From assembly GCF_000003195.3 (NCBI RefSeq), contig NC_012879.2:32456547-32520546 (forward strand): a stretch of DNA of 64,000 nucleotides, written 5' to 3'. How positions within the stretch are numbered: the stretch's first letter is position 1; each line of letters starts with the position of its first letter. The translations under genes were made by a program, and so were the position numbers. The notes beneath the pieces are model-generated. The model was given only the letters and a program-made list of their open reading frames with translations, ran no database searches and was not told where the DNA came from. The stretch comes from Sorghum bicolor (lineage: Eukaryota; Streptophyta; Magnoliopsida; Poales; Poaceae). Positions 3,046-54,558 of this stretch are shown piece after piece.

Positions 3046-3086
3046 CAGTGGAAAATGGTTGGCCGACCTTTGATCTTCGTGGGTAG

Positions 3087-18601: not shown

Positions 18602-18906
18602 GTGGACCACAGTTCACTGCTTGATTTTGGGAGTGCCTGCATGAGCAAATTGGTACTCATTTAGTCCGAAGCTCTGCTTATCATCCCCAAACAGCGGGTC
18701 AAACTGAAAGGGTCAACCAAATCCTGAAAGACATGTTGAGGGCATGTGCTCTCCCTTCAAAGGGTTCTTGGGTTAAGTGGTTGCCGTTAGCCGAATTCTC
18801 CTACAACAATAGTTATCAGGAGAGTATTAAGATGGCTCCATTTGAAGCCCTGTACGGTCGAAAGTGTCGAACCCCGTTGAATTGGGTAGAAGCCGGAGAG
18901 CGAAGT
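18602..18906 (+). pseudogene. Integrase of element A, C-terminal part (truncated)
   Basis: The integrase core resumes at GPQFTA, followed by a TGA near 18621-18623, then SSAYHPQTAGQTERVNQ (catalytic Glu in QTERVN), SWVKWLPLAEFSYNNS and FEALYGRKCRTPLNW. Coding stops at about 18906 in GERS, where satellite begins with a shared GTG. The C-terminal integrase domain and 3' LTR are missing. Confidence 0.88.
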
Positions 18907-21900
18907 GTCATATGGAATCTCGCTTCGGTCAATTTGGACATAGTGTTAGTTTTGGTGCAAGATAGGTGCACGGTTTGCACCTAATGCACCATAGGCTAAG
19001 AAACCATTTTGGACACACCCAATGGTACTCCTAGGTGAAGGGCCTCAAATGGAATCTCAATTTGGTCTATTTGGAGATAGTGCTAATCTTGATGCAAGAT
19101 AGGTGCATGGTTTGCATGGAACATACCATATGCTCAGAAATCAATTTGGACTCACTCGATGGAACTCCTAGATGACATGTGTCATATGGAATCCTGCATC
19201 GGTGTGTTTAGAGAGAGTGTTAGTTTCAGTGCAAGATTGGTGCATGGTTTGTGCCTAATGCACCATAGGCTAAGAAACCACTTTGGACACACCCGATGGT
19301 ACTCCTAGTTAAAGGGGCTCAAGTGGAATTTCAATTTGATCTGTTTGGACATTGTGCAAATCTTGATCCAAGATAGGATGCACGGTTTGCATGGAACATA
19401 CCTTATGCCTAGAAATCAATGTGGACACACTCGATGGAACTCCTAGATGACATGTGTCATATGAAATCTCGCTTCGGTCTGTTTGGAGACAGTGTTAGTT
19501 TCAGTGCAAGATAGGTGCACAGTTTGCACCTAATGCACTATAGTCTAAGAAACTATTTTGGACGTACCTATTGGAACTCTAAGGTGAAGAGGCTCAAGTG
19601 GAAGCTTGGTTCATTATTTTTAGAGATAGCACTAAATTTGATGCAAGATAGGTGCACGATTTGCATGGAACGTATTATATGCTCGAAAATCAATTTGGAC
19701 ACACCCGATGGAACTCCTAGATGACATGTGTCATATGAAATCTCGCTTCGGTCCGTTTGGAGATAGTGTTAGTTTTGGTGCAAGATAGGTTCACAGTTTG
19801 CACCTAATGCAACATAGTCTAAGATACCATTTTGGATGCACCTATTGGTACTCCAAGGTGAAGAGGCTCAAGTGAAAGCTTGGTTCAGTCTATTTAGAGA
19901 TAGTGCTAAACTTGATGCAAGATAGGTGCATGGTTTGCATGCAACGTATCATATGCTCGAAAATCAATTTAGACGCACCCGATGGAACTGCTAGATGACA
20001 TCTCTCATGGAATCTCGCTTTAGTCTGTTTGGAGATAGTGTTAGTTTCAGAGGTGCCCAGTTTGCACCTAATGCACTATAGTCTAAGAAACCATTTTGGA
20101 CACACCTGTTGGTACTCCAAGGTGAAGAGGCTCAAGTGGAAGCTCACTTCGATCTGTTTAGAGATAGTGCTAATCTTGATCCAAGATAGGATGCACGGTT
20201 TGCATGAAACATACCATATGCTCGGAAATCAATTTGGACACACCTGATGGAACTTCTAGATGACATGTGTCAAATGAAATCTCACTTCGGTCTGTTTGGA
20301 GATAGTGTTAGTTTCGGTGCAAGATAGGTGCACGGTTTGTGCCTCATGCACCATATGCTAAGTAAACATTTTGGACGCACCCGATGGTACTCCTAGGTTA
20401 AAGGGCTCAACTGGAAGCTCGGTTGGGTCTGTTCGGAGATAGTGCTAATGTTGATGTAAGATAGGTGCACAGTTTGTATGAAACGTAACATATGCTCAGA
20501 AATCAATTTGGACACACTCGATGGAACTCTTAGATGATGTGTGTCATATTGAATCTTGCTTCGGTCCATTTGGGATAGTGTTAGTTTCGGTGCAAGACAG
20601 GTGCACGGTTTGCGCCTAATGTAGGCTAAGAAACCATTTTGGACACACCCAATGGTACTCCTAGGTGAAGGGGCTCAAATGGAAGCTCAGTTCGGTATGT
20701 TCGGAGATAATGCTAATCATGATGCAAGAGAGGTGCATGGTTTGCATGGAACCTGCCATATGCTCTGAAATCAATTTGGACTCACCCAATGAAACTCCTA
20801 GATGACGTGTGTCATATGGAATCCCGGTTCGGTCTGTTTGGAGAGAGTGTTAGTTTCGGTGCAAGATAGGTGCACGGTTTGTGCCCAATGCACCATAGGC
20901 TAAGAAACCACTTTGGACACACCCGATGGTACTCCTAGGTTAAAGGGCTCAAGTGGAAGCTTTGTTTGGTCTATTTAGAGACAGTGTTAATCTTGATGCA
21001 AGATATATAGGTGCATAGTTTGCTTGGAACGTATCATATGCTCAAAAATCAATTTGAACGCACTAGATGAAACTCCTAGATGACATGTGTCATATGGAAT
21101 CTCGCTTCGGTCCATCTGGAGATAGTGTCAATTTCGGTGCGAGATAGGTGCACGGTTTGCGCCTAACACACCATAAGCTAAGAAACCATTTTGGACACAC
21201 CTAATTGTACTCCTAGGTGAAGGGGCTCAAATGGAAGCTTAGTTTGGTCTGTTTGGAGATATTGCAAATCTTGATGCAACATAGGTGCATAGTTTGCATG
21301 GAACGTACCATATGCTTTGAAATCAATTTGGACTCACCCGATGGAACTCCTAGATGACGTGTGTCATATGGAAACTCGCTTCGGTCTATTTGAAGATAGT
21401 GTTAGTATCGGTGCAAGATAGGTGCCCAGTTTGCGCCTAAGGAACTATAGTCTAAGAAACTATTTTGGACGCACCTGTTGGTACTCCAAGATGAAGAGGC
21501 TCAAGTGGAAGCTCAGTTTGGTCTATTTAGATATAGTGCTAAACTTGATCCAAGATAGGATGCACGGTTTGCATGGAACGTACCATATGCTCGAAAATCA
21601 ATTTGGACTCACCCAATGGAAATCCTAGATGATGTGTGTCATATGAAATCTCGCTTTGATCTGTTTGGAGATAGTGTTAGTTTCGATGCAAGATAGGTGC
21701 TTGGTTTGTGCCTAATGCACCATAGGCTAAGAAACATTTTTGGACGCACCTGATGGTACTCCTAGGATAAAGGGCTCAAGTGGAAGCTCGGTTGGGTCTG
21801 TTCGGAAATAGTGCTAATCTTGATGAAAGATAGGTGCACGGTTTGCGTGGAACGTACCATATACTCAAAAATCAATTTGGACATACTCGATGGAACTCCT

Positions 21901-23914
21901 AGAAGACGTGTGTCATATGAATCTCGCTTCGGTCCATTTGGAGATAGTGTTAGTTCCAATGCAAGATAGGTGCACGGTTTGCGCCTAATGCACCATAGTC
22001 TAAGAAACCATTTTGGATGCACCCGATGGTACTCCTAGGTAAAGGGTCTCAAGTGGAAGCTCAGTTTGATCTATTTGGTGATCGTGCTAATCTTGATCCA
22101 AGATAGGATGCACGCTTTGCATAGAACATACCATATGCTCAGGAATCAATTTGGATGCAGCCGATGGTAGTCCGAGGTAAAGGGGCTCAAGTGGAAGCTC
22201 AGTTTGATCTATTTGGTGATCGTGCTAATCTTGATCCGAGATAGGATGCACGGTTTGCATAGAACATACCATATGCTCAGGAATCAATTTGGATGCAGCC
22301 GAGGGAACTCCTAGATGACGTGTGTCATATGAAATCTGGCTTCGGTCTGTTTGGAGATAGTGTTAGTTTCGGTAGAAGGTAGTTGCACGGTTTGTGCCTA
22401 ATGCACCATAGGCTAAGAAACCATTTTGGTAGCGCCCGATGGTACTCCTAGGTTAAAGGGCTTAAGTGGAAGCACGATTTGGTCAGTTCGGAGATATTGC
22501 TAATCTTGATGCAAGATAGGTGCACAGTTTGCGTGGAACATACCATATGCTCTGAAATCAATTTGGACGCACCCGATGGAACTCCTAGATGACATGTCTC
22601 GTATGAAATCTGGCTTCGATCTGTTTGGAGACAGTGTTAGTTTTGGTGCAAGATAGGTGCACAGTTTGCATCTAATGCACCATAGTGTAAGAAACCATTT
22701 TGGATGCACCTATTGGTACTCCAAGGTGAAGAGGCTCAAGTGGAAGCTTAGTTCGGTCTGTTTAGAGATAGTGCTAAACTTGATGCAAGATAGGTGCACG
22801 TTGTGCATGGAACATATCATAGGCTAAGAAATTATTTTGGATGCACCCAATGTACTCCTAGGTTAAAGGGCTGAAGTGGAAGCTCGGTTTGGTCGGTTTG
22901 GAGATGTGCCAATCATGGTGCAAGATAGGTGCACGGTTTGCTTGGAACGTATCATATGCTCAGAAATCAATTTGAACACACTCGATGGAACTCCTCGATG
23001 ACATGTGTCGTACGGAATCTTGCTTCGGTCCATCTAGAGATAGTGTTAATTTCGGTGCGAGATAGGTGCACGGTTTGCGCCTAACACACCATAAGCTAAG
23101 AAACCATTTTGGACACACCTAATGGTAATCCTAGGTGAAGGGGCTCAAATGGAAGCTTAGTTTGGTCAGTTTGGAGATATTGCAAATCTTGATGCAACAT
23201 AGGTGCATAGTTTGCTTGGAATGTACCATATGCTTTGAAATCAATTTGGACTCACCCGATGGAACTCCTAGATGACGTATGTCATATGGAATCTCACATC
23301 AGTCTATCTGGAGAGATTGTTAGTTTCGGTGCAAGATAGGCGCATGGTTTGTGCTAATGCACCATAGGCTAAGAGACCACTTTGTATGCACCCGATGGTA
23401 CTCATAGGTCAAGAGGCTCAAGTGGAAGCTCGGTTTGGTCTGTTTGGAGATCGTGCTAATCTTGATCCAAGATAGGATATACGGTTTGCATGGAATGTAC
23501 AATATGCTTAGAAATCATTTTGGACGCACCCGATGGAACTCCTAGATGACGTGTATCATATGAAATCTCGCTTCGGTCTGTTTGGAGATAGTGTTAGTTT
23601 TGGTGCAAAACAGGTGCACGGTTTCTGCCTAATGCACCATAGGCTAAGAAACTATTTTGGATGCATCTATCGGTACTCCAAGGTGAAGAGGCACAAGTGG
23701 AAGCTTGGTTCGGTCTGTTTAGAGATAGTGCTAAACATGAAGCAAGATAGGTGCACGGTTTGCACGGAACGTTTCATATGCTCCGAAATTAATTTGGACG
23801 CACCCGATGGAACTCCTAGATGACATGTGTCATATGGAATCTCGCTTCGTTCTGTTTGGAGACAGTGTTAGTTTTGGTGCAAGATAGATGCACAGTTTGT
23901 ACCTACTGCACTAT
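18907..23914. repeat. 137-bp satellite array, block 2 (about 36 monomers)
   Basis: Alternating A/B monomers; B starts at 19161, 19436, 19710 and 19984 are 274-275 bp apart. Many A monomers here have GATCCAAGATAGGATGCACGG in place of GATGCAAGATAGGTGCACGG. A one-monomer duplication (A-A) lies at about 22030-22310. A ~1.9-kb local repeat links 21.09 kb to 23.02 kb, and long stretches match block 3 at constant offset. The block ends at GCACTAT, where element C inserted. Confidence 0.95.
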
Positions 23915-24611
23915 TGTTGACACCGTTTTTGGGCACGTGTCCATAATTGGTAAAGTGTAGATCGGCAAGATGAGACAGTGGTGTTTGATCTGCAGGGTGA
24001 GTTGCCGATGAAGATGGTTGCGATGGAAGGGTGGCTGAACATGACCAAGTCTATGGGTGATGATGTGTTTGTGCCGATGGCTATAACGAAGGAGTCTGCC
24101 GATGGTACGGAAGAGGAGTCTAGAAGTTACCGATTGGCTGGTAGGGGTGTTCCAGTTTGTCACGGGGGGGATAGCTTTATGTTTTCCTTAGTTATTTAAA
24201 TCGTTTTGTATATGGATTCTGTGTAATTTGGAATTCGAGTTCTAGTCGTGTCTGGTTGTAGCTCTTTGAGTAGGGTATAAATGTAGACCCTAAGGCCTTG
24301 TAATGAGATATCTATCAATCAATCAAACACACGTTTTTACTCATATTCCAAGCATCTACTTTTTCAACGACTTCGTCATACTTTTTCCTTTTCATTATGA
24401 GTTCTTAGGAATTCATCGACTTAAGCTCGGCGTGTTCTCAAGTTCCGCGTGGATACCTCTTGGCCGTGACATCCGGGCGCATCGCTGTTGTCGGGACCAA
24501 AGTATTCGAGCTACCACCTTTGCCGATAGTAAGGTCAAATCGGCTGGCACGCCTTAACGTTTGAATCGGGTATTAGCCCTTTGTGTTTGCAGATTAGCTT
24601 TTGCACCAACA
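23915..24611 (+). repeat. 5' LTR of element C (697 bp)
   Basis: TGTTGACACC...CACCAACA. A TATA box (GGTATAAATG) lies at 24274-24283, followed by a TTGTAATGAGATA region. It contains about six copies of GCCGAT/ATCGGC. Its partner is 35587-36284. Confidence 0.95.
24276..24282 (+). promoter_or_regulatory. TATA box in element C 5' LTR
   Basis: TATAAAT within GGTATAAATG, about 335 bp from the LTR end; conserved in the 3' LTR at 35949-35955. It would drive the genomic RNA. Confidence 0.6.
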
Positions 24612-24616
24612 CATCT

Positions 24617-24636
24617 TTTGGCACGCCCGGTGGGAC
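24617..24636 (+). other. Primer-binding site of element C
   Basis: TTTTGGCACGCCCGGTGGGA starts a few bases inside the 5' LTR. The TGGCACGCCCGGTGGGAC pattern is common in grass Tat elements; I do not assign the tRNA with confidence. Confidence 0.6.
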
Positions 24637-24657
24637 AGATTCAAGATCAAGATCAAC

Positions 24658-27531
24658 ATGTCGACTTCTGAGTTTGATCAGGAGAACGTTATCCCCGTGA
24701 CGGAAGCCAATGTCAAGGATGAGCAGAAGCAAGCTATTGCTAAGGCCATGGAGGATTACAAGCAGCAATGCCTGAGGTCCTTCAGCATGAACAGGAGTGG
24801 CGAGGTGATCCAGAAGGATGCACTGCCGGCACCGCGGCAGGTTACTTTTGAAGGCAATCCTAGCAAACTTCAAGAGATGGTTGACAACGCTATCAACCGT
24901 GCTTTGATCAACCAAGCTGGTGTACTGTCTAACACGGTTTTCAATGCCATGGCAAGAACTTTCAAAGAAGGACAACTGCCACCAGATTATGTGGGCCCCA
25001 CTTATCACCAGCCAAGGTCACCAGTGGTCACAGCTCCATCGGCCGCTACAGCCGCTGCGGGCATGGATATTCCTGTTCCGCCAAGCACGGTGGGAGTCAC
25101 CAATGCACAATCTACGCCGATGACAACCAATCCACAAACTTCAGATGGGCAGATCAAACTTGCTACAGATCAGTTGGCATCGGCAATGTCAGGATTGACT
25201 CCTCCTCCTAACTTGTGGGGTTATGGCATGCCTCTAGAGTTAACGCCGGGTACGTCGCAGACGACTGATGTGAGGGGCAAGACTCCTATGGCATCGGCAC
25301 CTCCAAGCATGCCGATGAACCAGAGTCCCCAGTATACTACAACTACTACTACAAGACCTCACACTGGGAATTCTCAAGCTCCAACATTCCAGATGCCTAA
25401 CGCATCGGCAGACTCAATGCTGATGCAACAGAGGTCTATGATCCAACCAGTGTATGTCAGTTCAATGATAATGCCCAATTACCAGTCATCGGCAGGGCCT
25501 ATGCCGATGAACGCTAATAGTGGATGGCTTGGGCAGCAAGTCTTTCCACAGACACCCCAACCGAGTCATCAGGCTACAGGGTTCCACCAAGGACACATCT
25601 ATCCCGGGTTCCGGAATCAGGGGATGCCTAACCAGCCAATGAACCTTGGGCAGCAGGTCGGCGCACAGCAGATTGGCGGGCAGCAGCTTGGTGGTCCACA
25701 AATTGGGGGCCAGAAGATTAATCCAATGTTTCATGCAGATCGTGCGCCGCATAGACACGCGGAAGCTTACCAGCAGGTGCTGGATCCCTTATTGGGCCGA
25801 TAAGATTGTTGAAGTGATGAGAGACCAATTCGGGATAAAACCCAAAGTCAACACTTACTCTTATCGGATGCCGTATCCTCCCGCATATGATTTGATCCCG
25901 CTTCCACATCGGTACAAGGTACCTAATTTTACTAAGTTTTCTGGGCAGGATGACACGTCAACCATGGAGCACGTCAACAAGTTCATTATTCAATGCGGTG
26001 AAGCTGGTAACAGGGACGAGTTAAGGGTTCATCTATTCTCGTCATCATTGTCTGGATCAGCTTTTACCTGGTTTATATCACTACCTCCCAACTCGGTGAT
26101 TACTTGGCCCGATCTGGAGAAACAATTCCACAAGTACTTCTTTTCTGGGGTCCATGAGAAGAAGATCACCGACTTGGTCAAATTGAGGCAACGCAATGAC
26201 GAATCGGTTGAAAGTTTTGTGCAGAGGATACGGGAGGTCAAGAACAAGTGCTATAGTCTGGTTCTGGATGATCGGCAGCTTGCCGATTTGGCTTTCCAGG
26301 GTTTGTTGCCACACATCAGGGACAAGTATGCTTCTCAGGAGTTTGAAAGCTTAAGTCATTTGGTGCAGAGAATTTCTGATCAAGATATCAAGCCTTTTGA
26401 GCCCAAGAGAGCATGGAACAAAAAGGTATCATTCGTTGAGGAAGCAACAAGATCAGACTCTGATGAGGAACCAGTCATTGGCTTGGCAGAGTGGGTAAAA
26501 AATAAGAAGCCGATGTCTTGTCCTTTTGGACATAAAGAACCAGAGAAGTTCGCGTTTGACACCGCCAAGGCCGATAGGATATTTGACTTTCTACTTTAGG
26601 AAGGTCAGATCAAGCTCTCTCCTAATCACGTGATCCCATCGGCTGAAGAATTAAAAAGGATGAAATATTGCAAGTGGCACAATGCAACTTCTCACGACAC
26701 CAATGAGTGCAAGGTTTTCAGACAGCAGCTGCAATCGGCTATAGAGTCTGGGAGAATCAAGTTTGACAGTTCCAAGACCCAGAAGCCGATGAAGATTGAT
26801 CAACATCCTTTCCCAACGAACATGTTGGATGCTAAGGGAAAGGCCAAGGTCTTGACATCGGAAGCAGCTGAAAGAAGTGCATCGGTGGATCCTCAGCACC
26901 AGGTCACTACTGCCGATGCCAAAGGAAGAGGTTTGGTCCAGGAAGGAACTAACTCAGGAAGGCCTCCCCGGTCTGGTATTGTGATAACTCACAGGAGGCC
27001 TCGAGAGATTGGGCAACAATGAGAAGATCGGTACCGGCGCCAAGAAGAAGATTATCGTCGGGAAGAGGAGAGACGCCGACAAGAATGGAATCAGCATAGG
27101 GATCACTGGAATTGCCCGTTCTTCATTCACTGTTGGGAGGAAAATATCAAGCTTCCAACTATCAGAGATTGTCCAAAATGCAACGGTTATGACCGGTCTG
27201 ACAGGTCCGACCGGTACTATCGTGGTGATAATCGGCGATTTGATGGGCCGATTAGGGGGAGAACGTCCGTCCATGATCGGCTGGGGGGCAGACTTAGCGT
27301 ACATGACAGGCTTGGCGATTGTGTTCAATATTTTCCCAAGAACCAGGAAGAACTTGAAGAGATGGCTAATGCTCGGGTTCCCGATGAGTTCATATTTTGC
27401 AGGGATGCCAATACTTATCGGGTAGAGCCAAGGGAGAATCATCGCCCATCGGTAAGGCAGCAGCAACTTCCTCCCTGGTGTCCGGAGGGATTGACCAGGA
27501 CTCAGAAGAGAAGATTGCAGCACGAAAGGTG
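24658..27531 (+). pseudogene. gag of element C
   Basis: ATG 24658 opens a long N-terminal region rich in Gln, Met, Pro and Thr, with low-complexity repeats such as GGQQLGGPQIGG. A one-base insertion near 25785-25800 moves the frame (stop TAA 25801-25803). The capsid domain follows (YKVPNFTKFSGQDDTSTMEH, then HKYFFSGVHEKKITDLVKLRQ), then a zinc knuckle CKWHNATSHDTNEC (about 26655-26700) and an unusual second finger CPFFIHCWEENIKLPTIRDC (about 27108-27170) typical of Tat gag. Further stops are TAG 26597-26599, TGA 27020-27022 and TGA 27529-27531. It would form the virus-like particle and bind RNA. Confidence 0.88.
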
Positions 27532-28176
27532 AGAGGAATTGAGTAAAGGGGAGAATTCTGGACAGTCTGGGGATCAACAACAATCAGACCCCAAGGGGGG
27601 AGGTCCATCGGCAGATGTCAACATGGTATTTATGTTGCCGATGGAGTTCCTTGCGCCATCCAGTGATGATGAGGTGGAGTTTTCCGACCAAATAGCTCAG
27701 TTGGCTCTGGATCCAATGACGGCTATCTTCGAGAAGCCTGCCGATGATGAAAGGCAACATCTCAAGGCTCTGTTTGTCAAAGGAAGGGTTGATGGGCAGC
27801 CGATGACCAAGATTCTAATTGATGGTGGGGCTGCTATCAACATCATGCCGTATGCAGTGTATCGAAAGCTTGGGAAAGGGGATCAGGATTTAACCAAGAC
27901 CGAATGATGCTTAAAGACTATGAAGGGAATGTGTCTCCGGTCAAGGGGGCAATATGTGTAGAGTTGACCATCGGCAGCAAAACCTTTCCGACAACCTTCT
28001 TCGTGATTAGTGGAAAGGGTGCTTACAACCTGTTGTTGGGAAGAGATTGGATTCATGTTAATTGTTGTATCCCGTCTACAATGCCCCAATGCTTGGTTCA
28101 ATGGGTAGGTGACAAGATTGAAATTGTCCCAGGAGACTCTTCTTATGTCATCGCATCGGCAGAGGCAGACATATGA
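27532..28176 (+). pseudogene. Aspartic protease of element C
   Basis: The motif ILIDGGAAINIMPYAVY (about 27810-27860) keeps the catalytic Asp-Gly-Gly. The matching NLLLGRDWIHVN (about 28030-28065) gives the hydrophobic-Gly closing motif. A one-base deletion around 27903 splits the domain (TGA 27905-27907) and the frame continues to 28176. The stretch 28177-28281 before RT is degenerate, with stops in all frames. Confidence 0.85.
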
Positions 28177-28281
28177 AAGGACTAGGTGCATTTCAGGAGA
28201 AATTTGGGAAAAGGATTTTCTCAAGGTTGCCGATTACGAGATTCCACCAATCCAAGCAGTCGGTTCTGACGAAGGTTTTTA

Positions 28282-29397
28282 ATGGATAGGTTCGCCGATG
28301 ATGGAAAATTAGGCGAGGGGTTCACATCGGCCGATGATCTAGTAGAAGTAGATATAGGTAGCGGTGATAAGCCTAGACCCACTTTTATTAGTGCTAAGTT
28401 AGATTCTGAGTGTAAGCAACAGTTAACCAATTTGTTAAAGGAATATAAAGATTGCTTTGCTTGGGATTATACTGAGATGCCTGGTTTGGACCGATCAATT
28501 GTTGAGCATCGGTTGCCTATCAAGTCTGGATTTCGGCCACATCAGCAGCCAGCTCGCCGATGTAATCCTAATATTCTTCCTGACATCAAGGTCGAAATAA
28601 CCAAACTTATTGAAGCCAAATTTATTCGGCAGTGTCGGTATGCTGAGTGGATTTCCAATGTTGTTCTGGTCTACAAGAAGAACGGGAAGCTTCGGGTCTG
28701 CATTGATTTCAGGAATCTCAATAAAGCTACACCGATGGATGGATACCCAATGCCAGTTGCCGATCTGCTAGTCGACGCTGCAGCTGGGCATCGGATTATT
28801 AGCTTTATGGATGGCAATGCAGGATACAATCAAATATTCATGGCCGAAGAAGATATTCCAAAGACTGCGTTCAGATGCCCTGGTCATGTTGGATTGTTCG
28901 AATGGATAGTCATGACCTTCGGCTTAAAGAATGCTGGTGCTACTTATCAAAGGGCCATGAATTTTATATTTCATGAGTTCATCGGCAAGCTGGTGGAAAT
29001 TTATATTGATGATGTGGTGGTTAAGTCTGGAGACTTCGCAAAGCATCTTGCCGATTTACGAAAGGTGTTGGAATGCACAAGGAAGCATGGTTTGAAAATG
29101 AATCCCAATAAGTGTGCATTTGGTGTATCGGCAGGGCAATTTCTTGGTTTCATGGTGCACCAGAGGGGAATTGAAATCAGTCGAAGATCTATTGATGCCA
29201 TCAATAAGATAGTAGCCCCTACCAACAAGAGCGAGCTCCAATCCTTGATCGGCAAGGTAAATTTTATCAGAAGGTTTATATCTAACTTGTCTGGTAAAAT
29301 TCGTGCTTTCTGCCCTCTTCTTAAGTTAAAGGCCGATCAAGAGTTTGTTTGGGGGAGGAACAATAGTTGGCTCTGGATGAAATCAAGAATTATTTAA
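28282..29397 (+). pseudogene. Reverse transcriptase of element C
   Basis: An open frame of 372 codons holds CFAWDYTEMPGLD, EAKFIRQCRYAEW, LRVCIDFRNLNKATP, YPMPVADLLVD, FMDGNAGYNQI, VMTFGLKNAGATYQRAMN and the catalytic YIDD (29002-29013), then FLGFMVHQRGIE and LIGKVNFIRRFI. The palm and thumb are complete and the catalytic Asp pair is intact. The frame breaks near 29360, where an indel before the RNase H moves coding to frame 3; the last ~12 codons (to TAA 29395-29397) are out of frame. Confidence 0.92.
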
Positions 29398-31514
29398 TAA
29401 ATCCTCCAGTTCTAATTCCACCTTAGCAAGGGAAACCATTCAGATTGTATTTGTCTACCGATGGGATGGTCATCGGTTCGGCTTTAATTCAAGAGTTTGA
29501 AGGGAAGTAGCGTGTAATTTATTATTTAAGCAGAAGGTTGGTTGATGCTGAGACCAGGTATTCGGCTATTGAGAAACTGTGCTTGTGCTTATATTTCTCT
29601 TGTATCAAGTTGAGGCACTACTTGTTATCGGCCGAGTGCACTGTTATTTGCAAGGATGATGTAGTCCGGTACATGCTGTCCATGCCGATTATGAGTGGTA
29701 GGATCAGTAAATGGATTCTGGCACTGTCGGAGTTCGATCTGCGTTATGAATCGGCTAAAGCCGTTAAGGGGCAGATTATGGCCGATTTGGTGACTCAACA
29801 TTGTGGTACAGTGGAGGCTGTAGAAATTGTACCTTGGACGCTGTTCTTTGATGGATCTACATGTGACCGGGGGTCAGGGATCGGCATAGTATTAATTTCC
29901 CCTCGGGGAAGGAAGTATGAGTTTTCCTTGCCGATTGTTGCCACGTCAACAAATAATCAGGCTGAGTATCAAGCTTTGATAAAAGGATTAGAATTGCTGA
30001 GGGAGGTTCATGCTGATGCTATCGAAGTCTTCGGGGATTCTATGCTGGTTATAAATCAATTGGCTGGAAGCTAAAAAAGCCGAAGTGAAGTTCTCATAAC
30101 TTATTACGAGCGGAGTATGCAATTGTTGAAGGAATTCAAGGATTTCCAATTAGAGTATGTTCCTCGATTGCACAATGAAGAGACCAATCGGTTGGCTCAG
30201 CATGCCTCGGGATATCAGCCTATGATTGATGCAATATCGGCAATTGGTGCCGATGATTGGAGAAAAGATATCGTTGATTATTTGAAAGGTCCATCTAAGA
30301 GAGTTGAAAGGCGAGTTCGGTTTCAAGCCGCCAAGTATGTGCTCCTCGAAGATGAATTGTACTACCGAACTATTGATAGGATTCTTCTCCGATGCTTGGG
30401 TGACGATGAAGCTAGAAGTTTGATGGGAGAAATCCATGACGGGGTATGTGGAGCACATCAGTCGGCTTTCAAGATGAAGTGGATGATTAGGAGGAATGGG
30501 TATTACTGGCCGACCATACTTGAGGATTGCTTTAAATATTTCAAAGGGTGTCAAGGATGTCAAAAATTTGGTAATATTCAAAGAGCACCCGCATCGGCTA
30601 TGAATCCTATTATTAAACCTTGGCCGTTCCGAGGATGGGCTATTGATTTGATCGGCCAAATTTATCCACCATCTAGCAAGGGACATAAGTTTATTCTAGT
30701 TGCCACCTATTATTTCACTAAATGGGTTGAAGCTATCCCTTTGAAGAAAGTCACATCGGCCAATATGATTGATTTTGTGAAGGAGCACATTATTTACCGA
30801 TTTGGGATTCCTCAGACAATTACTACCGATCAGGGTACTATGTTCACATCAGGGGAATTTGATGAATTCGCAATCGGTATGGGGATTAAGGTGTTAAACT
30901 CTTCTCCTTATTATGCTCAAGCTAATGGGCAGGCCGAGGCGTCTAACAAAGGAATTATCAAGCTTATCAAGAGAAAAATTGAAGAAAATCCTAAGCGGTG
31001 GCACACATTATTAAGTGAAGCTTTATGGTCATATCGAATGGCTTGTCATGGATCAACCAAAGTTTCGCCTTATCAGTTAGTGTATGGACATGATGCGGTG
31101 TTGCCTTGGGAGATTAAGGCTGGATCTAGGCGACTATCTTTTCAAGATCAATTGGCTGCCGATGATTATGCTACTTTGATGACAGACGAGTTGGATGATT
31201 TAGTAGAGCATCGGCTGAGGGCTTTCATGAGTATAGAAGAGAATAAGAAAAGAGTTGCCAGATGGTACGATAAGAAGGTAAAGGCTAAGGAATTTGCCGA
31301 TGGAGACTTAGTATGGAAATTAATCTTACCGATCGGGACTAAAAGTTCAAAGTTTGGGAAGTGGTCTCCCAATTGGGAGGGCCCCTATCGGATAAGTCGA
31401 TCGGCTCCTGGTAATGCCTATATTTTGGAAACTCTCGAAGGAGTCAAATTTCCCAGAGCATTGAACGACAAATATCTAAAGAAGTACTACCCCAGTATAT
31501 GGGTCGATGAATAA
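29360..31514 (+). pseudogene. Dual RNase H and integrase of element C
   Basis: Frame 3. First comes a degenerate RNase H (about 29440-29800; YLSTDGMVIGSALIQ, LVDAETRYSAIEK). A second, archaeal-type RNase H follows (about 29835-30070) with LFFDGS, NNQAEYQAL and VFGDSMLVINQL, all three acidic residues present. Integrase comes next: H2C2 finger (HDGVCGAH ... CQGCQKF, about 30435-30570), core Asp in WAIDLIG and TTDQG, Glu in GQAEASNKG, and the C-terminal domain to WVDE at 31514. Stops lie at about 29366-29368, 29425-29427, 29508-29510 and 30072-30074, all TAG or TAA. From 30117 the frame is open for 465 codons. Integrase is therefore uninterrupted. Confidence 0.93.
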
Positions 31515-31671
31515 AAGTTCAAATGCCGATAACACTCCTATCAGCTAGATTAAAATGTATCTGAGGCTGGACTTAATGTTGCAAAAGATGCCGATAATAG
31601 TCCTATCGGCTAGACTAAACATCAAGAAAGCTGAAAAGTAGGAAGAGGCCGATGTGTTGCCGATGAGGAGT

Positions 31672-34600
31672 TCACATACTTAGCAGCGCTTGGATGGCCG
31701 ATATAGCGCGCAGGCGGATCTGGTTGGCTGCTTCTATTTCTTTGACGTCTTCATCGGCAGAGCCTTCTATCGGTTTCAACTTTTTCTTCAACTGCAGTGC
31801 TTTGCGACCATGAGCGTTTCGTTCTTGTTCAAGGAGTTTGATGGTATCTGGTAGTTAACTCTCTTCCTGTTAGGCTTGAGATAGGGCGTTCTCCACTTGC
31901 TTGAGTTCTGCCAGCAGGGCTTCTCTCTTGACTGATAAGTCGGAGATTTTCTGTTTCAGTGCGGCTCCCGAAGACTTCAAGGCGCCGATGCTCTTGTGTT
32001 TCTCATCGGTCAGGAGCTTCTCTTTCATCATCTCCTCAGAAAGCCGGGTCTGAGCAGTTCTGTTGGCAAGGCGCCGGGCGGCCCTTTGGTACTGCAGCTG
32101 ACGACTCTCCAGATGTGCAGCCTGGAAGAGGGTTTCTTCGGCATCGGCAGGAATCTGGCCTCTGAGAGCCTTGAACAGAACCTTAGCCGGATCAGAGTCA
32201 TCGACCAGTTGGGCCGTATCTTGATGGAGGAGGGCCGACAGTTCTTCCAGTTTAGCCCTGATCTCTGCCGATGCAATCCCAATTGCCCGGGAGGAACTGG
32301 CTTCGTCACCTTCGTCTTCGGAGATATCAATGGCGAAGGAGAATAGGCTGTCGGGAGAATCCTACTCCTGAAAAGGAAAACAAATTGAGTCGTTCTATGA
32401 TAAGAGCATCGGCAAATAAGACTGGTAGAGACTGGGTGGCTTACTTGCTTCAAGGCGATCTCTTACCTTTGGCTGGAAGATGCCGATGGAGCCATGGATT
32501 GGTCGGCCAGAGTTGCCGATGGAACTACGTCAGCTGCAAATTAACAGAAGGGGTTATAATACCAAAAAGAATAAGTTCATCGGCAGTAATGTTATAGGAA
32601 TGCATTACCTTGAGCAGGGACGACGCTTGTCTGGATTGAAGAGACTACCGATGATATGATTGAACCTGCTGGATCAGTAGTTTGCTCGCCTACATCGGCT
32701 GATATGTCTTCTGGCTGGGGTGCTTCTAGTTGAGGTTCTTCTTGCTGAGGTTCTTCCGCTTGCAGTGCTTCTTGCGGTTGAGGAGATGGTACTTGCTGAG
32801 TCTCTGTTTCTTGGGGAGAAGGAGAAGATTCCACCGGAATAGGAGATACCGGAGGAGGAGGAGGAGTTGCCACTTTCTGGCGCTTGGTTTGTGCCCTGGT
32901 ACTCTTGGCACCTTTTCTCTTCTGCTGGCTGGACTAGGGGGCATCGGCACCTTTGCTTTTGGTCCTTGCCGATGCACTCGTTTGCTGTGGCAGAAAAGAG
33001 AGTTTGTGAGTAGCAGTATAGCCGATGTAAAAGTAAGATCGGTATGAATGAAGAGGTTTAACAGTTACCTTAAAAGACTGTGCTAGGGTGGAAGCAGCTA
33101 CTGATGGTGATGTCTGAGCTCTCCTGGTGGTAACTTTCTTGAGGCGTATGCCTCGATGCACGATGGCGGCCAGAGTGGGAGCGTTGTGGCCGATTGAAGA
33201 GATTGGACCTGATGCAAACAGATCAATCGGCTTGCCACTTCTACTGTCCGATGGAGGAATGTTATCAGTCTGCAAAATGATACAAAAGTAAATCACCGAT
33301 GAAAATGAAATTGGAAGAATTGGAACATTGGTTTAAAGACACTTACAGTATCATCGGGGACTTTGTAATCGGGATCGATCATACCGCGGTACGTGAGGGC
33401 CGATTTGCAGAATAAATGCTCCTTCCATTCTGCCCACCACTGCTTGTACGCCTGAGTGATGAAGGCGGCTGGAACCCACTTCGATAAGTCTACGTCTGTA
33501 TCGGCACCCGATGGCAGTTGGGCTACTCGAATCCATTCAAGGAGGCTGGTGATGGTTTCCCTGGGCTTTATCACATCGGCATAGCAGAGTGCAATCGGCA
33601 GCTGGCCGAAAGCTAACTGACGAGCTAGTGCCGATGGATTGTAGAACTCATAAGTCTGGGAGGAGGTTTTCCCACTACCAAAGAAGTTCACCGGTATGGC
33701 TCTGGGGGTCACCAATGCCATCATCACTTCGTTGTCCTTGTCGAGAGCGTCGTTGAATGGGTTAAAAACCAGGGGAAGCATATTGTCTGGGTCATCATAG
33801 GCCAACCATGCTCGCTCATCTCTGGCCAAACCTTCATACAAATTTTGAAAGAATCGGCTGACCTGATCTGGATTACCCCCTGTACCAGGCAGAACTATGA
33901 CAGCTTGACCGAAGTTCAAGGGAGGGCGTGTTGCCGATTCTTCTTCATCCAATACATGGTTCTCGGCTATGTCCCTTGGAAAGCGCTGTGCAAAGAGGTC
34001 AAACTCCAGACGCTTGTGCAGATGGAGGTTGAGCCACATGTTGATGAACCACCAAGGACCTCCCAAGTTGCCGATGGACTGGCCGAGTAAGAGTTTCCTA
34101 GTCACTTGGTGAAGGAGGTGGTAAGCCGCACCAAGCAGGTATCGGCCGAGGGGAAATCGGCCACCATCGGCTAGATTTTCTGCTGCTGCTAAATAAACGG
34201 AGGTTGGTCCTGCCGATCGGCCGCAAAACATGAACTTATCTAACCACATGTTCAGGAAACATGTCTTCTCTTTTATGTTGACAGGGCCTGTTCGGCTGTA
34301 TTTTTGGATGTACAATGACCAACCGCCGATAGCACGAGTTTCTACCTTTGCCTTGGGTTTGGTATCGAAGAAATGGGTGCTATTGGCAGAAGATACATCT
34401 AGGCCTGTAAGCATAGCTACATCGGCAAGTGTGGGAAAAGCAGGGCCGTGGCCGAAGACAAAAGCATTGAGCGTGTCTGACCAGAAATATGACGCAGCTA
34501 TCAGCAGTGACTCATTCCTATGCATATCGGCAATGGACAACCTAATGCATTGGTCCAACTTTCTCTCACCCCACTGGACTTCATTTGAGTTGCTGACCCT

Positions 34601-34932
34601 CAAAAACCAATCCGTCCATCCTACAGTAGGGCTAGGCCAAGAACGGAAAGTATCCTTCCACAGATCCAAAGAAAAGTTCTCGGCCCTAAAAGGAATCCTG
34701 TTTGTTTCTGCATTGATGAGATCGGTTGGATCTGGATCCCCTAACGGGCCAAGGCATTGGAGATGAGGTTGATCGGTGGGAATGACAATTTTGTTGGCCA
34801 AATCCTAATGAAGATAAAAAGGGGGGAAACAAAGAAAAAGAAATATATTCAGTAAGATGAACAGAGGTGTGAGAAAAGGTACAGGAGGCGGAATGAAGGA
34901 CTGACCTCAGGGACGATGAAGTTGACGGCCAT
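31672..34932 (-). pseudogene. Antisense spliced gene of element C, plant-mobile-domain-like protein
   Basis: It runs opposite to pol, with tails facing (pol ends 31514). Exons on - by splice consensus: 34932-34906 (M A V N F I V P E), 34804-33347, 33269-33069, 32984-32609, 32533-32467, 32367-31672. Donors are GTCAGT, GTAAGT, GTAACT, GTAATG and GTAAGA; acceptors TTCATTAG, TTTGCAG, TGCCACAG, TTTGCAG and TTTTCAG. Exon 2 (486 codons, uninterrupted) resembles the plant mobile domain of transposon and host origin (GWTDWFLRVSNS, ADVAMLTGLDV, WWFINMWLNLHL). Later exons give a Pro/Glu/Gln-rich linker and a coiled-coil tail. Breaks: TAG 32936-32934, TAG 32364-32362, two TAA in exon 6, and a phase mismatch into exon 6. 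Domain name is by recognition; function unknown. Confidence 0.75.
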
Positions 34933-35569
34933 CTTGCCACAGGGAGGATGATCGAGAGCTTCGGAGTTGGTGAAGAAGGGAGTTCGTCGAAGATCTCAGG
35001 GACCTTGAATAGCGCCGCCGCTTGAAGACTAAAGTTGGGTTTGTGGAATGATGTGATGGAGAAGGAGTACCCGAGAAGGAGCTATTTATAGGACAAAACG
35101 GGCAAGGGTAAAATGGACTTATCTCTTCGCCGTATCCGTGAAATCCAAGGGTACTCAGGTAGATTTGGTAACTGTTCGCACGGTAATTAAGGGACTGTGC
35201 AGGTGATTGGACAGGAAGCGGTCGTTATCCAGAGATATTTTACTGTGCGGGATCTCCTGGTCGGTCCATAGGCAGCGCCTTGTAACGGTCATATTGCTGA
35301 TGGGCGAATAAAGTGGAGATAGCCGTTTGGGAAGATAAGGTATGGGCGTTCTGGTCAGTCCGTCGGCAAGTCCCTGTAACGATAGTGTTGCCGATGCGCG
35401 ATTAGAATGGAAATGTCTGCTTGGGAAGATGAGGATTTCGAGGAATCTGCGGAAGAATCAAATCCGAATTGCTCAGATTAAGGCTGTCGGTTACCAGATT
35501 GGGGGCATTAATTGCGGAAAGAGGCATTATTACTGTAGAGAATTTCAGAGCATTAATGATTTCATACTC
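34933..35569 (-). promoter_or_regulatory. Promoter and 5' leader region of the antisense gene in element C
   Basis: On the minus strand a consensus TATA box CTATAAATAG lies at 35092-35083, about 150 nt upstream of the ATG at 34932, leaving a leader of roughly 120 nt. The rest, up to the polypurine tract, is noncoding with repeated TCCGTCGGCAAG / GTAACGGTCATATTGC-type segments (around 35270-35400) that may be an upstream duplication. No ORF of note. Confidence 0.6.
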
Positions 35570-35586
35570 CGAAATTGGGGGGCATG
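35570..35586 (+). other. Polypurine tract of element C
   Basis: GAAATTGGGGGGCATG immediately precedes the 3' LTR and would prime plus-strand synthesis. Confidence 0.75.
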
Positions 35587-36284
35587 TGTTGACACCATTT
35601 TTGGGCACGTGTCCATAATCGATAAAGTGTAGATCGGCAAGATGAGACAGTGTTGTTTGATCTGCAGGGTGAGTTGCCAATGAAGATGGTTGCCGATGGA
35701 AGGGTGGCTGAACATGACCAAGTCTATGGGTAATGATGTGTTTGTGCCGATGGCTATAACGAAGGAGTCTGCCGATGGTACGGAAGAGGAGTCTAGAAGT
35801 TACCGATTGGGTGGTAGGGGTGTTCCAGTTTGTCACGGGGGGGATAGCTTTATGTTTTCCTTAGTTATTTAAATCGTTTTGTATACGGATTCTGTGTAAT
35901 TTGGAATTCGAGTTCTAGTCGTGTCTGGTTGTAGCTCTTTGAGCAGGGTATAAATGTAGACCCTAGGGCCTTGTAATGAGATATCTATCAATCAATCAAA
36001 CACACGTTTTTACTCATATTCCAAGCATCTACTTTTTCGACGACTTCGTCATACTTTTTCCTTTTCATTACGAGTTCTTAGGAATTCGTCGACTTAAGCT
36101 CGGCGTGTTCTCATGTTCCGCATGGATACCTCTTGGCCGTGACATCCGGGCGCATCGCTGTTGTCGGGACCAAAGTATTCGAGTTACCACCTTTGCCGAT
36201 AGTAAGGTCAAATCGGCTGGCACGCCTTAACGTTTGAATCGGGTATTAGCCCTTTGTGTTTGCAGATTAGCTTTTGCACCAACA
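35587..36284 (+). repeat. 3' LTR of element C (698 bp)
   Basis: Same ends and TATA box (35949-35955) as the 5' LTR. By eye about 16 substitutions and one single-base indel separate the copies. At commonly used grass LTR rates that suggests roughly a million years, an estimate that needs an alignment. Confidence 0.95.
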
Positions 36285-39200
36285 ACTATAGTCTAAGAAA
36301 CCATTTTGGACGCACAAATTGGTACTCTAAGGAGAAGAGGCTCAAGTGGAAGCTTGGTTCGGTCTGTTTAGAGATAGTGCTAAACTTGATGCAAGAAAGG
36401 TGCACGGTTTGCATGGAATGTATCATATGCTCGAAAATCAATTTGGGTGCACCCGATGGAACTGCTAGATGACATGTGTCATATGGAATCTCGTTTCGGT
36501 CTATTTGAAGATAGTGTTAGTTTTAGTGTAAGATAGGTGCCCAGTTTGCACCTAATGCACTATAGTTTAAGAAACCATTTTGGATGCACCTGTCGGTACT
36601 CCAAGGTGAAGATGCTCAAGTGGGAGCTCAGAGAAACCATTTCGGACGCACCTATTGGTACTCCAAGGTGAAGAGGCTCAAGTGGAAGCTTGGTTCATTC
36701 TGTTTAGAGATAGTGCTAATCTTGATCCAAGATAGGATGCACGGTTTGCATGGAACGTACCATATGCTTGGAAATCAATTTGGACGCACCCGATGGAACT
36801 ACTAGATGACATGTGTCATATGAAATCTTGCTTCGCTCTATTTGGAGATAGTGTTAGTTTTGGTGAAAGATAGGTGCACAGTTTGTACCTAATGCACCAT
36901 AGTCTAAGAAACCATTTTGGATGCACCTATTGGTAGTTCAAGGTGAAGAGGCTCAAGTGAAAGCTTGGTTCAGTCTGTTTAGAGATAGTGCTAAACTTGG
37001 TACAAAATAGGTGAATGGTTTGCACGCAACGTATCATATGCTCGAAAATCAATTTAGACGCACCCGATGGAACTCGTAGATGACATCTCTCATGGAATCT
37101 CGCTTCAGTCTGTTTGGAGATAGTGTTAGTATCAATGCAAGATAGGTGCCCAATTTGCACCTAATGCACTATAGTCTAAGAAACCATTTTGGACGCACCT
37201 ATTGGTACTCCAAGGTGAAGAGGATCAAGTGCAAGCTCAGTTCGATCTGTTTAGAGATAGTGCTTATCTTGATCCAAGATAGAATGCACAGTTTGCATGG
37301 AACGTACCATATGCTCGGAAATCAATTTCGACACACCTGATGGAACTTCTAGATGACATGTGTCAAATGAAATCTCACTTCGGTCTATTTGGAGATAGTT
37401 TTAGTTTCGATGCAAGATAGGTGCACAGTTTGTGCCTCGTGCACCATATGCTAAGTAAAAATTTTGGACGCACCCGATGCTACTCCTAGGTTAAAGGGCT
37501 CAAGTGGAAGCTCGGTTTGGTCGGTTCGGAGACAGTGCTAATCTTGATGCAAGATAGGTGCATGGTTTGCATGGAACGTAACATATGCTCAGAAATCAAT
37601 TTGGATGCACTCGATGGAACTCCTAGATGACGTTTGTCATATGGAATCTCGGTTCGGTCTATTTGGAGATAGTGTTAGTTTTGGTGCAAGACAGGTGCAC
37701 GGTTTGCGCCTAATGCACCATAGGCTAAGAAACCACTTTGGACACACCCAATGGTACTCCTAGGTTAAGGGGCTCAAGTGGATGTTTGGTTTGGTCTGTT
37801 TGGAGATCGTGCAAATCTTGATCCTAGATAGGATGCACAGTTTGCATGGAACGTACCATATGCTCAGAAATTAATTTGGATGCACCCAATGAAACTCCAA
37901 GATGATGTGTGTCATATGAAATCTCGGTTCCGTCTGTTTGGAGATAGTGTTAGTTTCGAAGCAAGATAGGTGCACGGTTTGTGCCTAATGCACCATAGGC
38001 TAAGAAACCATTTTGGTCGCACCCAAGGGTACTCCTAGGTTAAAGAGCTCAAGTGGAAGCTCTGTTTGGTCTGTTTGGAGATAGTGTTAATCTTGATGCA
38101 AGATAGGTGCACAGTTTGTATGGACCGTACCATATTCTCATAAATCAATTTGGACGCACATGATGGAACTCCTAGATGACATGTGTCATATGGAATCTCG
38201 CTTTGGTCTGTTTGGAGATAGTGTTAGTTTTGGTTCGATATAGGTGTATAGTTTGCACCTAATGCACCATAGTCTAAGAAACCATTTTGGACGCAGCTAT
38301 TGGTACTCCAAGGTGAAGAGGCTCAAGTGGAAGCTTTGTTCGGTCTGTTCAGAGGTAGTGCTAAACTTGACGCAAGATAGGTGCACGGTTTGCATGGAAC
38401 GTATCATATGCTCGGAAATCAATTTGGACGCACCCAATGGAACTCCTTTATGACATCTATCATGGAATCTTGCTTCGGTATGTTTGGAGATAGTGTTAGT
38501 TCTAGGGCAAGATTGGTGCCTAGTTTGTGCCTAATGCACTATAGTCTAAGAAACTATTTTGGGCGCACCTGTTGGGACTCTAAGGTGAAGAGGCTCAAGT
38601 GGAAGCTTGGTTCGGTCTGTTTAGAAATAGTGCTAATCTTGATCCAAGATAGGATGCACGGTTTGCATGGAACGTACCATATGCTTGGAAATCAATTTAG
38701 ACACACCCAATGGAACACCTAGATGACATATGTCATATGAAATCTTGCTTCGGTCTGTTTGGAGATAGTGTTAGTTTCAATGCAAGATAGGTGCACGGTT
38801 TTTGCCTAATGCACCATATGCTAAGAAACTATTTTGGGCGCACCTGATGGTACTCCTAGGTTAAAGGGCTCAAGTGGAAGCTCGGTTGGGTCTGTTCGAA
38901 GATAGAGCTAATCTTGATGCAAGATAGGTGCACAGTTTGTGTGGAACGTAAGATATGCTCGGAAATCAATTTGGACACACTTGATGGAACTCCTAGATGA
39001 TATGTGTCATATGAAATCTCGCTTCGGTCTGTTTGGAGACACTGTTAGTTTCAGTGCAAGATAGGTGCACAGTTTGCACCTAATGCACTATAGTCTAAGA
39101 AACCATTGTGGACGCACCTATTGGTACTCCAAGGTGAAGAGGCTCAAGTGGAAGCTTGGTTCATTCTGTTTGGAGATAGCACTAAACTTGATGCAAGATA

Positions 39201-42200
39201 GGTGCACGATTTGCATGGAACGTATCATATGCATGGAAATCAATTTGGACGCACCCGATGGAATTCCTAGACGACATGTGTCATATGAAATCTCGCTTCG
39301 GTCTGTTTGGAGATAGTGTTTGTTTTGGTGCAAGATAGGTGCACAGTTTGCACCAAATGCACCATAGTCTAAGAAACCATTTGGGAGGCACCTATTGGTA
39401 CTCCAAGGTGAAGAGGCTCAAGTGGAAGCTTGGTTCGGTCTGTTTAAAGATAGTGCTAAACTTGATGCAAGATAGGTGCACGGTTTGCATGCAACGTATC
39501 ATCTGCTTGAAAATCAATTTAGATGCACCTGATGGAACTCCTAGATGACATCTGTCATGGAATCTTGCTTCAGTCTGTTTGGAGATAGTGTTAGTTTCAG
39601 TGTAATATAGGTGCCTAGTTTGCGCCTAATGCATTATAGTTTAAGAAACCATTTTGGACACACCTATTGGTACTCCAAGGTGAAGAGGCTCAAGTGGAAG
39701 CTCAGTTTATCAGTTTAGAGATAGTGCCAATCTTGATCCAAGATAGCCTGCATGGTTTGCATGGAACGTACCATATGCTCAGAAATCAATTTAGACACAC
39801 CTGATAGAACTCCTAGATGACATGTGTCATATGAAATCTCACTTCGGTTTATTTGGAGAAAGTGTTAGTTTTGATGCAAGATAGGTGTATTATTTGTTCT
39901 AATGCACCATAGGCTAAGAAACCATTTTGGTCGCATCTGATGGTACTAATAGGTTAAAGGGCTCAAGTGAAGCTCTATTTGGTCTGTTCAGAGATAGTGT
40001 TAATCTTGATGCAAGATAGGTGCACAGTTTGTGTGGAACGTACCATATGCATGAAAATCAATTTGGACGCACTCGATGGAACTCCTAGATGACATGTGTC
40101 ATATGAAATCTCACTTCGGTCTGTTTGGAGATAGTGTTAGTTTTGGTGCAAGATAGGTGCACAGTTTGCACCTAATGCACCATAGTCTAAAAAACTATTT
40201 TGGATGCACCTATAGGTAATCCAAGGTGAAGAAGGTCAAGTGAAAGCTTGGTTCAGTCTGTTTAGAGATAGTGCTAAACATGATGCAAGATAGGTGCATG
40301 GTTTGCATGCAACGTATCATATGCTCGAAAATCAATTTAGACGGACCTGATGGAACTCCTAGATGACATCTCTCATGGAATCTCGCTTCAGTCTGTTTGG
40401 AGATAGTGTTAGTTTCAGTGTAAGATAGGTGCCCAGTTTGCACCTAATGCACTATAGTGAAAGAAACCATTTTGGACGCATCTGTTGGTACTCCAAGGTG
40501 AAGAGGCTCAAGTGGAAGCTCAGTTTGATATGTTTAGAGATAGTGCTAATCTTGATCCAAGATAGGATGCACGGTTTGCATGGAACGTACCATATGCTCA
40601 GAAATCAATTTGGACACACCTGATAGAATTTCTAGATGACATGTGTCAAATGAAATCTCACTTCGGTCTGTTTGGAGATATTGTTAGTTTCGATACAAGA
40701 TAGGTGCACGTTTTGTGCCTCATGCACCATATGGTAAGTAGACATTTTGGATGCACCCGATGGTACTCCTAGGTGAAAGGGCTCAAGTGGAAGCTCGGTT
40801 TGGTATGTTCGGAGATAGTGCTAATCTTGATGCAAGATAGGTGCACCGTTTGCGTGGAACATACCATATGCTCAGAAATCAATTTGGCCGCACTCGATGG
40901 AACTCTTAGATGATGTGTGTCATATTGAATTTCGCTTCGGTCCATTTGGAGATAGTGTTAGTTTCGGTGCAAGACAGGTGCACGGTTTGCACCTAACGCA
41001 CCATAGGCTAAGAAACCATTTTGGACACACCCAATGGTACTCCTAGGTGAAGGGGCTCAAATGGAAGCTCAGTTCGGTATGTTTAGATACAATGCTAATC
41101 ATGATGCAAGAGAGGTGCATGGTTTGCATGGAACCTACCATATGCTCGGAAATCAATTTGGACTCACCCGATGGAACTCCTTGATGACGTGTGTCTTATG
41201 GAATCCTGGTTCGGTCTGTTTGGAGAGAGTGTTAGTTTCGGTGCAAGATAGGTGCACGGTTTGTGCCTAATGCACCATAGGCTAAGAAACCACTTTGGAC
41301 ACACCCGATGGTACTCCTAGTTAAAGGGGCTCAAGTGGAATTTCAATTTGATCTGTTTGGACATTGTGCAAATCTTGATCCAAGATAGGATGCACGGTTT
41401 GCATGGAACATACCTTATGCCTAGAAATCAATTTGGACACACTCGATGGAACTCCTAGGTTAAAGGGCTCAAGTGGAAGCTTTGTTTGGTCTATTCAGAG
41501 ATAGTGTTAATCTTGATGCAAGATATATAGGTGCATAGTTTGCGTGGAACATACTGTATGCTCAGAAATCAATTTGGATGCACCCGATGGAACTCCTAAA
41601 TGACATGTGTCATATGGAATCTCGCTTCGGTCTGTTTGAAGATAGTGTTAGTTTTGGTGCGAGATAGGTGCACAGTTTGCACTTAATGCACTACAGTCTA
41701 AGAAACCATTTTGGACGCACCTATTGGTACTCCAAGGTGAAGAGGCTCAAGTGGAAGCTTGGTTTGGTCTGTTTAGAGATAGTCCTAAACTTGATGCAAG
41801 ATAGGTGCACGGTTTACATAGAACGTTTCATATGCTCGGAAATCAATTTGGACGCACACGATGGAACTCCTAGATGACATGTGTCATATGGAATCTCGCT
41901 TCGGTCTGTTTGAAGATAGTGTTAGTATCAGTGCAAGATAGGTGCCCAGTTTGCGCCTAGTGAACTATAGTCTATGAAACTATTTTAGACGCACCTGTTG
42001 GTACTCCAAGGTGAAGAGGCTCAAATGGAAGCTCAGTTCGGTCTCTTTAGATATAGTGCTAATCTTGATCCAAGATAGGATGCACGGTTTGCATGGGACG
42101 TACCATATGCTTGGAAATCAATTTGGACTCACCCGATGGAACTCCTAGATGACGTGTGTCATATGAAATCTCGCTTTGATCTATTCGGAGATAGTGTTAG

Positions 42201-53783: not shown

Positions 53784-53797
53784 GTAGCCCCCGAGTC
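53784..53797 (-). other. Polypurine tract of element E
   Basis: The minus strand reads GACTCGGGGGCTAC just before the LTR. The plus word GTAGCCCCCGAG recurs at 53881-53892 and 59375-59386. Confidence 0.65.
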
Positions 53798-54548: not shown

Positions 54549-54558
54549 CCTATAAATA
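54549..54558 (+). promoter_or_regulatory. TATA box of the antisense gene in element E
   Basis: CCTATAAATA is followed by CGTCGTGG, 133 nt upstream of the ATG at 54691. Same motif and spacing as the antisense gene of element C. Confidence 0.6.

Follow-up and report, generated by a model that had tools for sequence, protein, structure and literature searches.

Why a single retrotransposon should be filled with copies of one hexamer and its complement, ATCGGC/GCCGAT, is the question raised by element C, a full-length Ty3/gypsy LTR retrotransposon on the forward strand at 23915-36284 of the 64,000-nucleotide stretch of Sorghum bicolor DNA analyzed here (the window). The element is inserted in an array of a 137-bp satellite and is bounded by a target duplication of 5 bp (ACTAT; 23910-23914 and 36285-36289). 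The satellite (spacing ~275 bp) flanks it at 18905-23909 and 36290-42950 and is probably centromeric. The 5′ LTR (23915-24611, running from TGTTGACACC to CACCAACA) and the 3′ LTR (35587-36284), both on the forward strand with six words each, are separated by 16 substitutions and a single 1-bp indel, two of the changes falling in words; at a rate of 1.3e-8, this divergence corresponds to ~0.9 million years. Immediately 3′ of the 5′ LTR lies a stretch on the same strand that by eye resembles a primer-binding site (24616-24636), followed by forward-strand gag-pol (24658-31514), which is interrupted by stops and frameshifts and contains domains for gag (PF03732), reverse transcriptase (RT; PF00078), RNase H (PF17917), a second RNase H (PF13456) and integrase (PF17921 and PF00665), with PF17917 preceding PF13456 within 29511-30074 and integrase at 30075-31514. 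After a spacer (31515-31869), an intron-containing gene on the opposite strand (31675-34804) is similar to the Miscanthus protein P0011 over 34582-33341, 33254-32676, and 32370-31675; by that similarity, the 3′ part of the spacer overlaps the last antisense exon. The sole Pfam match of the antisense ORF is a plant mobile domain (PMD; PF10536) at 33293-34804 on the antisense strand (E 8e-16), and the upstream region of this gene occupies 34805-35587. According to excerpts of PMC6317226, a second RNase H (aRH) placed between the first one and integrase marks the Tat lineage, and extra ORFs carry PMD in 57% of Ogre and Transposase_28 in 23% of Retand elements; because element C has both a second RNase H before integrase and a PMD ORF, these criteria place it, judged from sequence, in the Tat lineage (Ogre/Retand).

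Counting over the 12,370 bp of element C gave 48 ATCGGC and 53 GCCGAT, a total of 101 words or one per 122 bp, compared with 8 and 4 (12 in all) in the remaining 51.6 kb of the window. The original prediction had put these numbers, by eye, at about 100 copies against about 6 expected by chance, and the count bears it out: Markov chains built from element C itself give, at order 1 and order 2, expectations of 5.0 (maximum 12 in 300) and 11.0 (maximum 22 in 300), and chains of order 3 and order 4, which absorb the signal, give 49.9 and 88.9. All 25 bins of 500 bp hold at least one word, the gaps between words look random (CV 1.09; random range 0.82-1.19), and no periodicity of spacing was found at 3, 10, 10.5, 11, 147, or 180. 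The LTRs hold 12 words, gag-pol 52, the spacer 7 (in 355 bp, the densest part), the antisense exons 20, the introns 9, and the antisense upstream region 1 in 783 bp; the spread claimed for the LTRs, gag, pol, spacer, antisense exons, and introns is thus real for every one of these parts, and the word-poor upstream region is the exception to it. A word desert of ~860 bp (34527-35389) spans that upstream region and is borderline when compared with random largest gaps (97.5% point, 948).

Codon preference had been judged insufficient to explain words that use all frames, and a synonymous-codon shuffle of 11 coding stretches (n = 500) agrees, yielding 12.6 ± 2.9 words (maximum 26) where 69 are observed, with 28, 9, and 32 of them in reading frames 0, 1, and 2. 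The hexamer itself is the core of a longer word, approximately cATCGGCAr: of the 101 copies, 55 have C at -1, 59 have A at +6, and 74 have A or G at +7. ATCGGT is in excess too, with 24 in element C vs. 3.6 scaled from the remaining window, and by the same scaling GCCGAC is scarcely enriched (7 vs. 3.4). The CpG-decay forms ATTGGC (11 vs. 2.6) and ATCAGC (10 vs. 4.6) also exceed the rest of the window, suggesting that mutation erodes the word. No information was found in the flanks of the 101 words outside -1 to +7, which excludes the alternative, raised earlier, of ancestral amplification of a longer repeat; a graded consensus with blank flanks looks like a protein site, not a copied repeat. 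Among CpG tetramers, CCGA stands out in element C (2.65) and TCGA in element D (2.44); no CpG tetramer of the left-edge element, A, or B is comparable, the highest value there being 1.87.

Further copies were located in the same genome through the pattern ATCGGC-N8-ATCGGC, which occurs at 59 + 61 places (reversed control, 8 + 18); 10 kb was taken around each of 20 places among the 100 listed, and the loci are therefore pre-selected for words. Nine of these 20 loci (L016, L020, L022, L023, L024, L026, L027, L028, and L029) align to element C over 3.5-7.1 kb at 75-87% identity and carry 30-63 words per 10 kb, and a tenth copy, L037, adjoins L022 and has 43 words. In the four copies at 82-87% identity, 73-88% of the words are intact, compared with 25-35% of matched NNCGNN hexamers, while the five copies at 75-78% identity retain 38-53% and 9-14%, respectively. 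Across the nine copies, the words are thus conserved well above other sites in family members, persisting two to five times as often as matched CpG hexamers, and the choice of loci by one word pair cannot account for the conservation of the other words. Among synonymous third positions whose first two bases are unchanged, 43 of 425 cells within words have changed, compared with 2846 of 7651 elsewhere; the counts for those in a CpG are 29 of 210 and 305 of 470. By region, intact words vs. controls number 134/212 vs. 161/763 in gag-pol, 16/27 vs. 3/53 in the spacer, 44/87 vs. 28/318 in antisense exons, 7/10 vs. 4/22 in introns, and 20/30 vs. 73/167 in the LTRs; these conservation counts carry no P value because related copies do not supply independent cells. 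In conservation over ten copies, ATCGGC leads the 34 CG-containing hexamers and comes fourth among 358 hexamers with at least 40 aligned cells, and the five divergent copies hold 118 words, 84 of them common to element C and the others at places where element C has none.

A family-wide dispersed word had been proposed, and it is present and conserved in these ten copies, but at four related loci no aligned word of C survives. Among the stretches with at least 300 bp aligned to element C (L005, L008, L013, L017, and L019), the loci L005, L013 (L008 lies inside it), L017, and L019 keep 0 of 22 aligned C words and 25 of 145 control hexamers; L005, L013, and L019 align in the LTR and leader and L017 mainly in the PMD. 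C-related stretches without C's words therefore exist, and word layout varies. Word clusters were seen by eye near LTR starts in L017 (5014-5305, with a tandem duplication), L013 (4862-5060), and L025 (4785-5069), the last of which has no such alignment of at least 300 bp to element C, yet contains its cluster; the word can also be arrayed. Because words outlast matched CpG hexamers and synonymous change is suppressed inside them, the enrichment reflects real selection. This selection acts on a duplex DNA word, and amplification, codon preference, and RNA folding do not explain it: the strands are at parity (48:53) with no excess RNA folding, and a selected word that is two-stranded and free of position therefore indicates recognition of duplex DNA.

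Outside the family, the word does not look raised genome-wide, as judged from two readable regions, which are few. The arbitrary regions L032 and L033 contain 3 and 14 words, 10 of the latter at 2455-3333 in or beside a 60% PMD relative, and a third, L031, is N throughout; no host-wide enrichment equal to that of element C is seen, nor is the count raised outside the PMD relative. Protein relatives numbered 106 for PMD, 5048 for RT (120 listed), and 301 for gag (120 listed), with Miscanthus, Urochloa, Lolium, Oryza, Setaria, and Saccharum among the named ones listed. We scored these in a peptide test, which finds the hexamer best favored by peptides at residues differing from element C, after short and redundant rows were dropped (33 of 106 PMD, 21 of 120 listed RT, and 19 of 120 listed gag remaining). 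ATCGGC ranked 1 of 2080 hexamers for PMD; among the relatives listed, it ranked 87 for RT, a weak signal, and 555 for gag, which is no signal. Over whole relatives, its median rank was 32 for PMD and 68 for RT (among those listed), whereas eight control ORFs from regions A and D gave 688-2060, and single PMD relatives range from rank 1 (P0071) to 406 (P0074). For the PMD gene, these ranks suggest that grasses have had the word for a long time; the gag peptide rank, among relatives listed, lends no support to such an age. Viral contigs, phages, and plasmids yielded no usable relatives. A plant-like Ty3/gypsy pol fragment with 2 words occurs in an assembly labeled Streptomyces clavifer JCM 5059 (L001, BMWJ01000029.1) and is probably contamination.

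Elements A, B, and D had been said to lack the word. This holds for ATCGGC; D, however, carries its own dispersed word, CCTCGA/CTCGA. Element D is a young Tat element on the reverse strand with an antisense Transposase_28 ORF and LTRs 99.3% identical; it occupies 52794-64000 and runs ~3.0 kb past the window to ~66990 (L030 1-2990), with 66 scored genome matches at 93-100%, its own copy counted. Its 14.2 kb contain 87 CCTCGA (order-2 expectation, 32.9) on both strands and in 24 of 29 bins, and a synonymous shuffle of six of its ORFs gives 19.9 where 49 are observed. This word is weaker than that of C, since an order-3 chain gives 57 vs. 75 in the part of D within the window, and its conservation falls short of significance (22/40 vs. 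98/235, P = 0.12). A third Tat element, on contig 6 (C6:25513526-25520096; L034 6827-9000 plus L025 1-4397), has an RT 58% identical to that of D and carries CGACCA 36 times in 6.6 kb where 8.0 are expected. This element has a 70-bp tandem near its 3′ end; without the tandem, CGACCA numbers 27 vs. 6.2 expected, and it occurs 0 times in the preceding 6.8 kb and twice in the following 7.6 kb. No dispersed word was found in three elements without Tat-like pol, namely the A region, element B (with no RT match to element C), and the L036 LTR element (whose RT is nearest to A). Dispersed words thus appear to recur, in differing form, in sister Tat families, each of the two represented here by one copy. 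Element B has AACTAG as a one-strand tandem of 12 units in each LTR (43619-43713 and 50091-50185), and a cluster of CACCGGACGC-type words facing both ways (2678-3030) lies in an element at the window's left edge.

We propose, with a probability of roughly 0.4, that the words are putative binding sites for a sequence-specific trans-acting protein, likeliest the antisense PMD protein, that acts against silencing. A protein needing ~8 bp (cATCGGCAr, with ATCGGT tolerated) would coat element C end to end, "self" would be told by word density and not by position or strand, and an active lineage of C's Tat family would keep the words by selection. The PMD protein would act on sister copies, either keeping silencing off or promoting transcription, and the CpG within the word would let host methylation oppose the reader. 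We favor the antisense protein because C and D differ in both word and antisense protein, and because such proteins are predicted to bind DNA or are seen in the nucleus in other Tat elements: excerpts of PMC11963269 describe Tat antisense proteins with Transposase_28 as predicted DNA binders, and in those of PMC7264820 the Grande GENE23 protein is nuclear. On the other hand, the host PMD proteins MAIL1 and MAIN, as presented in excerpts of PMC5418596, work in silencing and not against it, which counts against an anti-silencing PMD reader. The structure model of the PMD protein is weak (mean pLDDT 63), with no PDB fold match at E 0.001 and no PDB sequence match, and DNA binding by the PMD is not supported by this model.

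The main rival to the antisense reader, which we consider somewhat unlikely, is a host DNA-binding factor, an alternative already named in the original prediction; it might be, for example, an AP2/ERF-type protein reading a CCGA core or a chromatin opener, with the antisense gene unrelated to the word and the element having gathered sites to recruit transcription or ward off methylation. The form RCCGAT (101 GCCGAT plus 24 ACCGAT) resembles the DRE core, RCCGAC, and the LTRs of C and of three related elements (starts by eye) have words concentrated in their first 400 bp; a host factor would also explain a core common to the subterminal repeats of two CACTA-type elements. Against it, GCCGAC is barely enriched, ordinary enhancers require no words across gag, pol, and introns, and two further Tat families of the same genome (one copy each) have other words.

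These two CACTA-type elements (CACTACCGGA..TCCGGTAGTG; L014 1469-5119 and L021 2820-5179) have GCCATCGGCAAA as their subterminal repeats. Because they carry the same core, the reader need not be Tat-encoded, and element C might exploit a TNPA-like subterminal-repeat binder of that CACTA family, an explanation we regard as improbable. Both elements have dense inverted GCCATCGGCAAA at each end and share the 8-mer CATCGGCA with element C; however, they were found through the paired-ATCGGC search and are hence selected to match, families vary in their repeats (PMC2613891, excerpts) so that some chance match is likely, and the flanks of C lack the CACTA consensus extension (CC before, AAA after).

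About equally improbable, in our estimate, is a role of the words in RNA, as packaging sites or through ATCGGC-GCCGAT pairing. Neighboring words alternate strand slightly above chance in C (62/100, P = 0.02), and inspection by eye shows a 7-bp hairpin at ~31590-31611, but the alternation is slight in nine other copies (186 vs. 161), the strands are used equally, and words also lie in introns and at the LTR start; in 160-nt windows taken each 400 nt, with 15 shuffles per window, folding hardly exceeds that of the shuffled sequence (mean z -0.4 and -0.5) and falls short of that in region A (-0.8). Least probable of all is that the words have no function and stem from codon preference, mutation bias, gene conversion, or the spread of an ancestral repeat. 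Copies that share ancestry could have inherited them, but against this stand 69 words vs. 12.6 in the synonymous shuffle, the use of all frames without common flanks, the persistence over matched CpG hexamers, the synonymous constraint, and an excess of decay forms that suggests a word eroded by mutation.

A protein reader of the kind we propose has parallels elsewhere. The DNA uptake sequences of Neisseria and Haemophilus are self-recognition words that lie on both strands and in coding DNA and arise by point mutation; they belong to bacterial chromosomes and transformation, and their density is ~one per kb vs. one per 122 bp in C. The likeness to VANDAL/VANC of Arabidopsis suggested in the original prediction extends, in excerpts of PMC5735166 and PMC10398659, to a dense short family-specific word that changes between families and an element that encodes a candidate reader. 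VANDAL, however, is a DNA transposon with VANC binding demonstrated (PMC5735166, PMC10398659) and with motifs that are tandem, in the same orientation, and mainly noncoding (PMC5735166), whereas C is an LTR retrotransposon whose PMD protein is a putative reader and whose words lie on both strands (48 vs. 53) at random spacing, 52 of them in gag-pol. The likeness is thus a functional one only, the layout being different and the antisense ORF matching the PMD. CACTA/Spm elements with TNPA also have many short sites for an element-encoded binder (PMC2613891, excerpts), and L014 and L021 use even C's core CATCGGCA in both orientations; in CACTA/Spm, a DNA transposon, these sites are concentrated at both ends and are required for excision (PMC2613891), whereas in C, which has LTRs and a 5-bp duplication instead of CACTA termini with end clusters, words run throughout (25/25 bins). 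Retand/Ogre elements share the long pol-LTR region and an antisense PMD or Transposase_28 ORF and have tandem repeats, and dispersed words go unmentioned in the excerpts of PMC11963269, PMC6317226, and PMC7264820 drawn on here. Among the open-access titles listed, none concerned ATCGGC words or dispersed or over-represented LTR-element motifs, which is weak evidence of absence.

A broader proposal, which we hold to be doubtful, is that every grass Tat family writes a private address word that is read by its co-evolving antisense protein, giving copy-specific anti-silencing with host genes little affected; such a system would be a convergent class I counterpart of VANC, and the differing words in two other Tat families (one copy each) are as expected for a family-private code. 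Self-recognition words of transposable elements are known, and what appears new, from the sequences compared here, is that they extend across the coding DNA of an LTR retrotransposon and seem to recur, as different words, in sister families. If the antisense protein reads the word, the purpose of the conserved antisense ORFs of Tat, Retand, and Ogre elements would be answered, and self-recognition codes would have arisen not only in DNA transposons but also in retrotransposons. Whether or not a reader is named, element C is a clear case in which selection for a DNA word overrides synonymous freedom in coding sequence. This has a bearing on tests of transposon genes that rely on codons and on the question of how CpG sites survive in heterochromatic elements.
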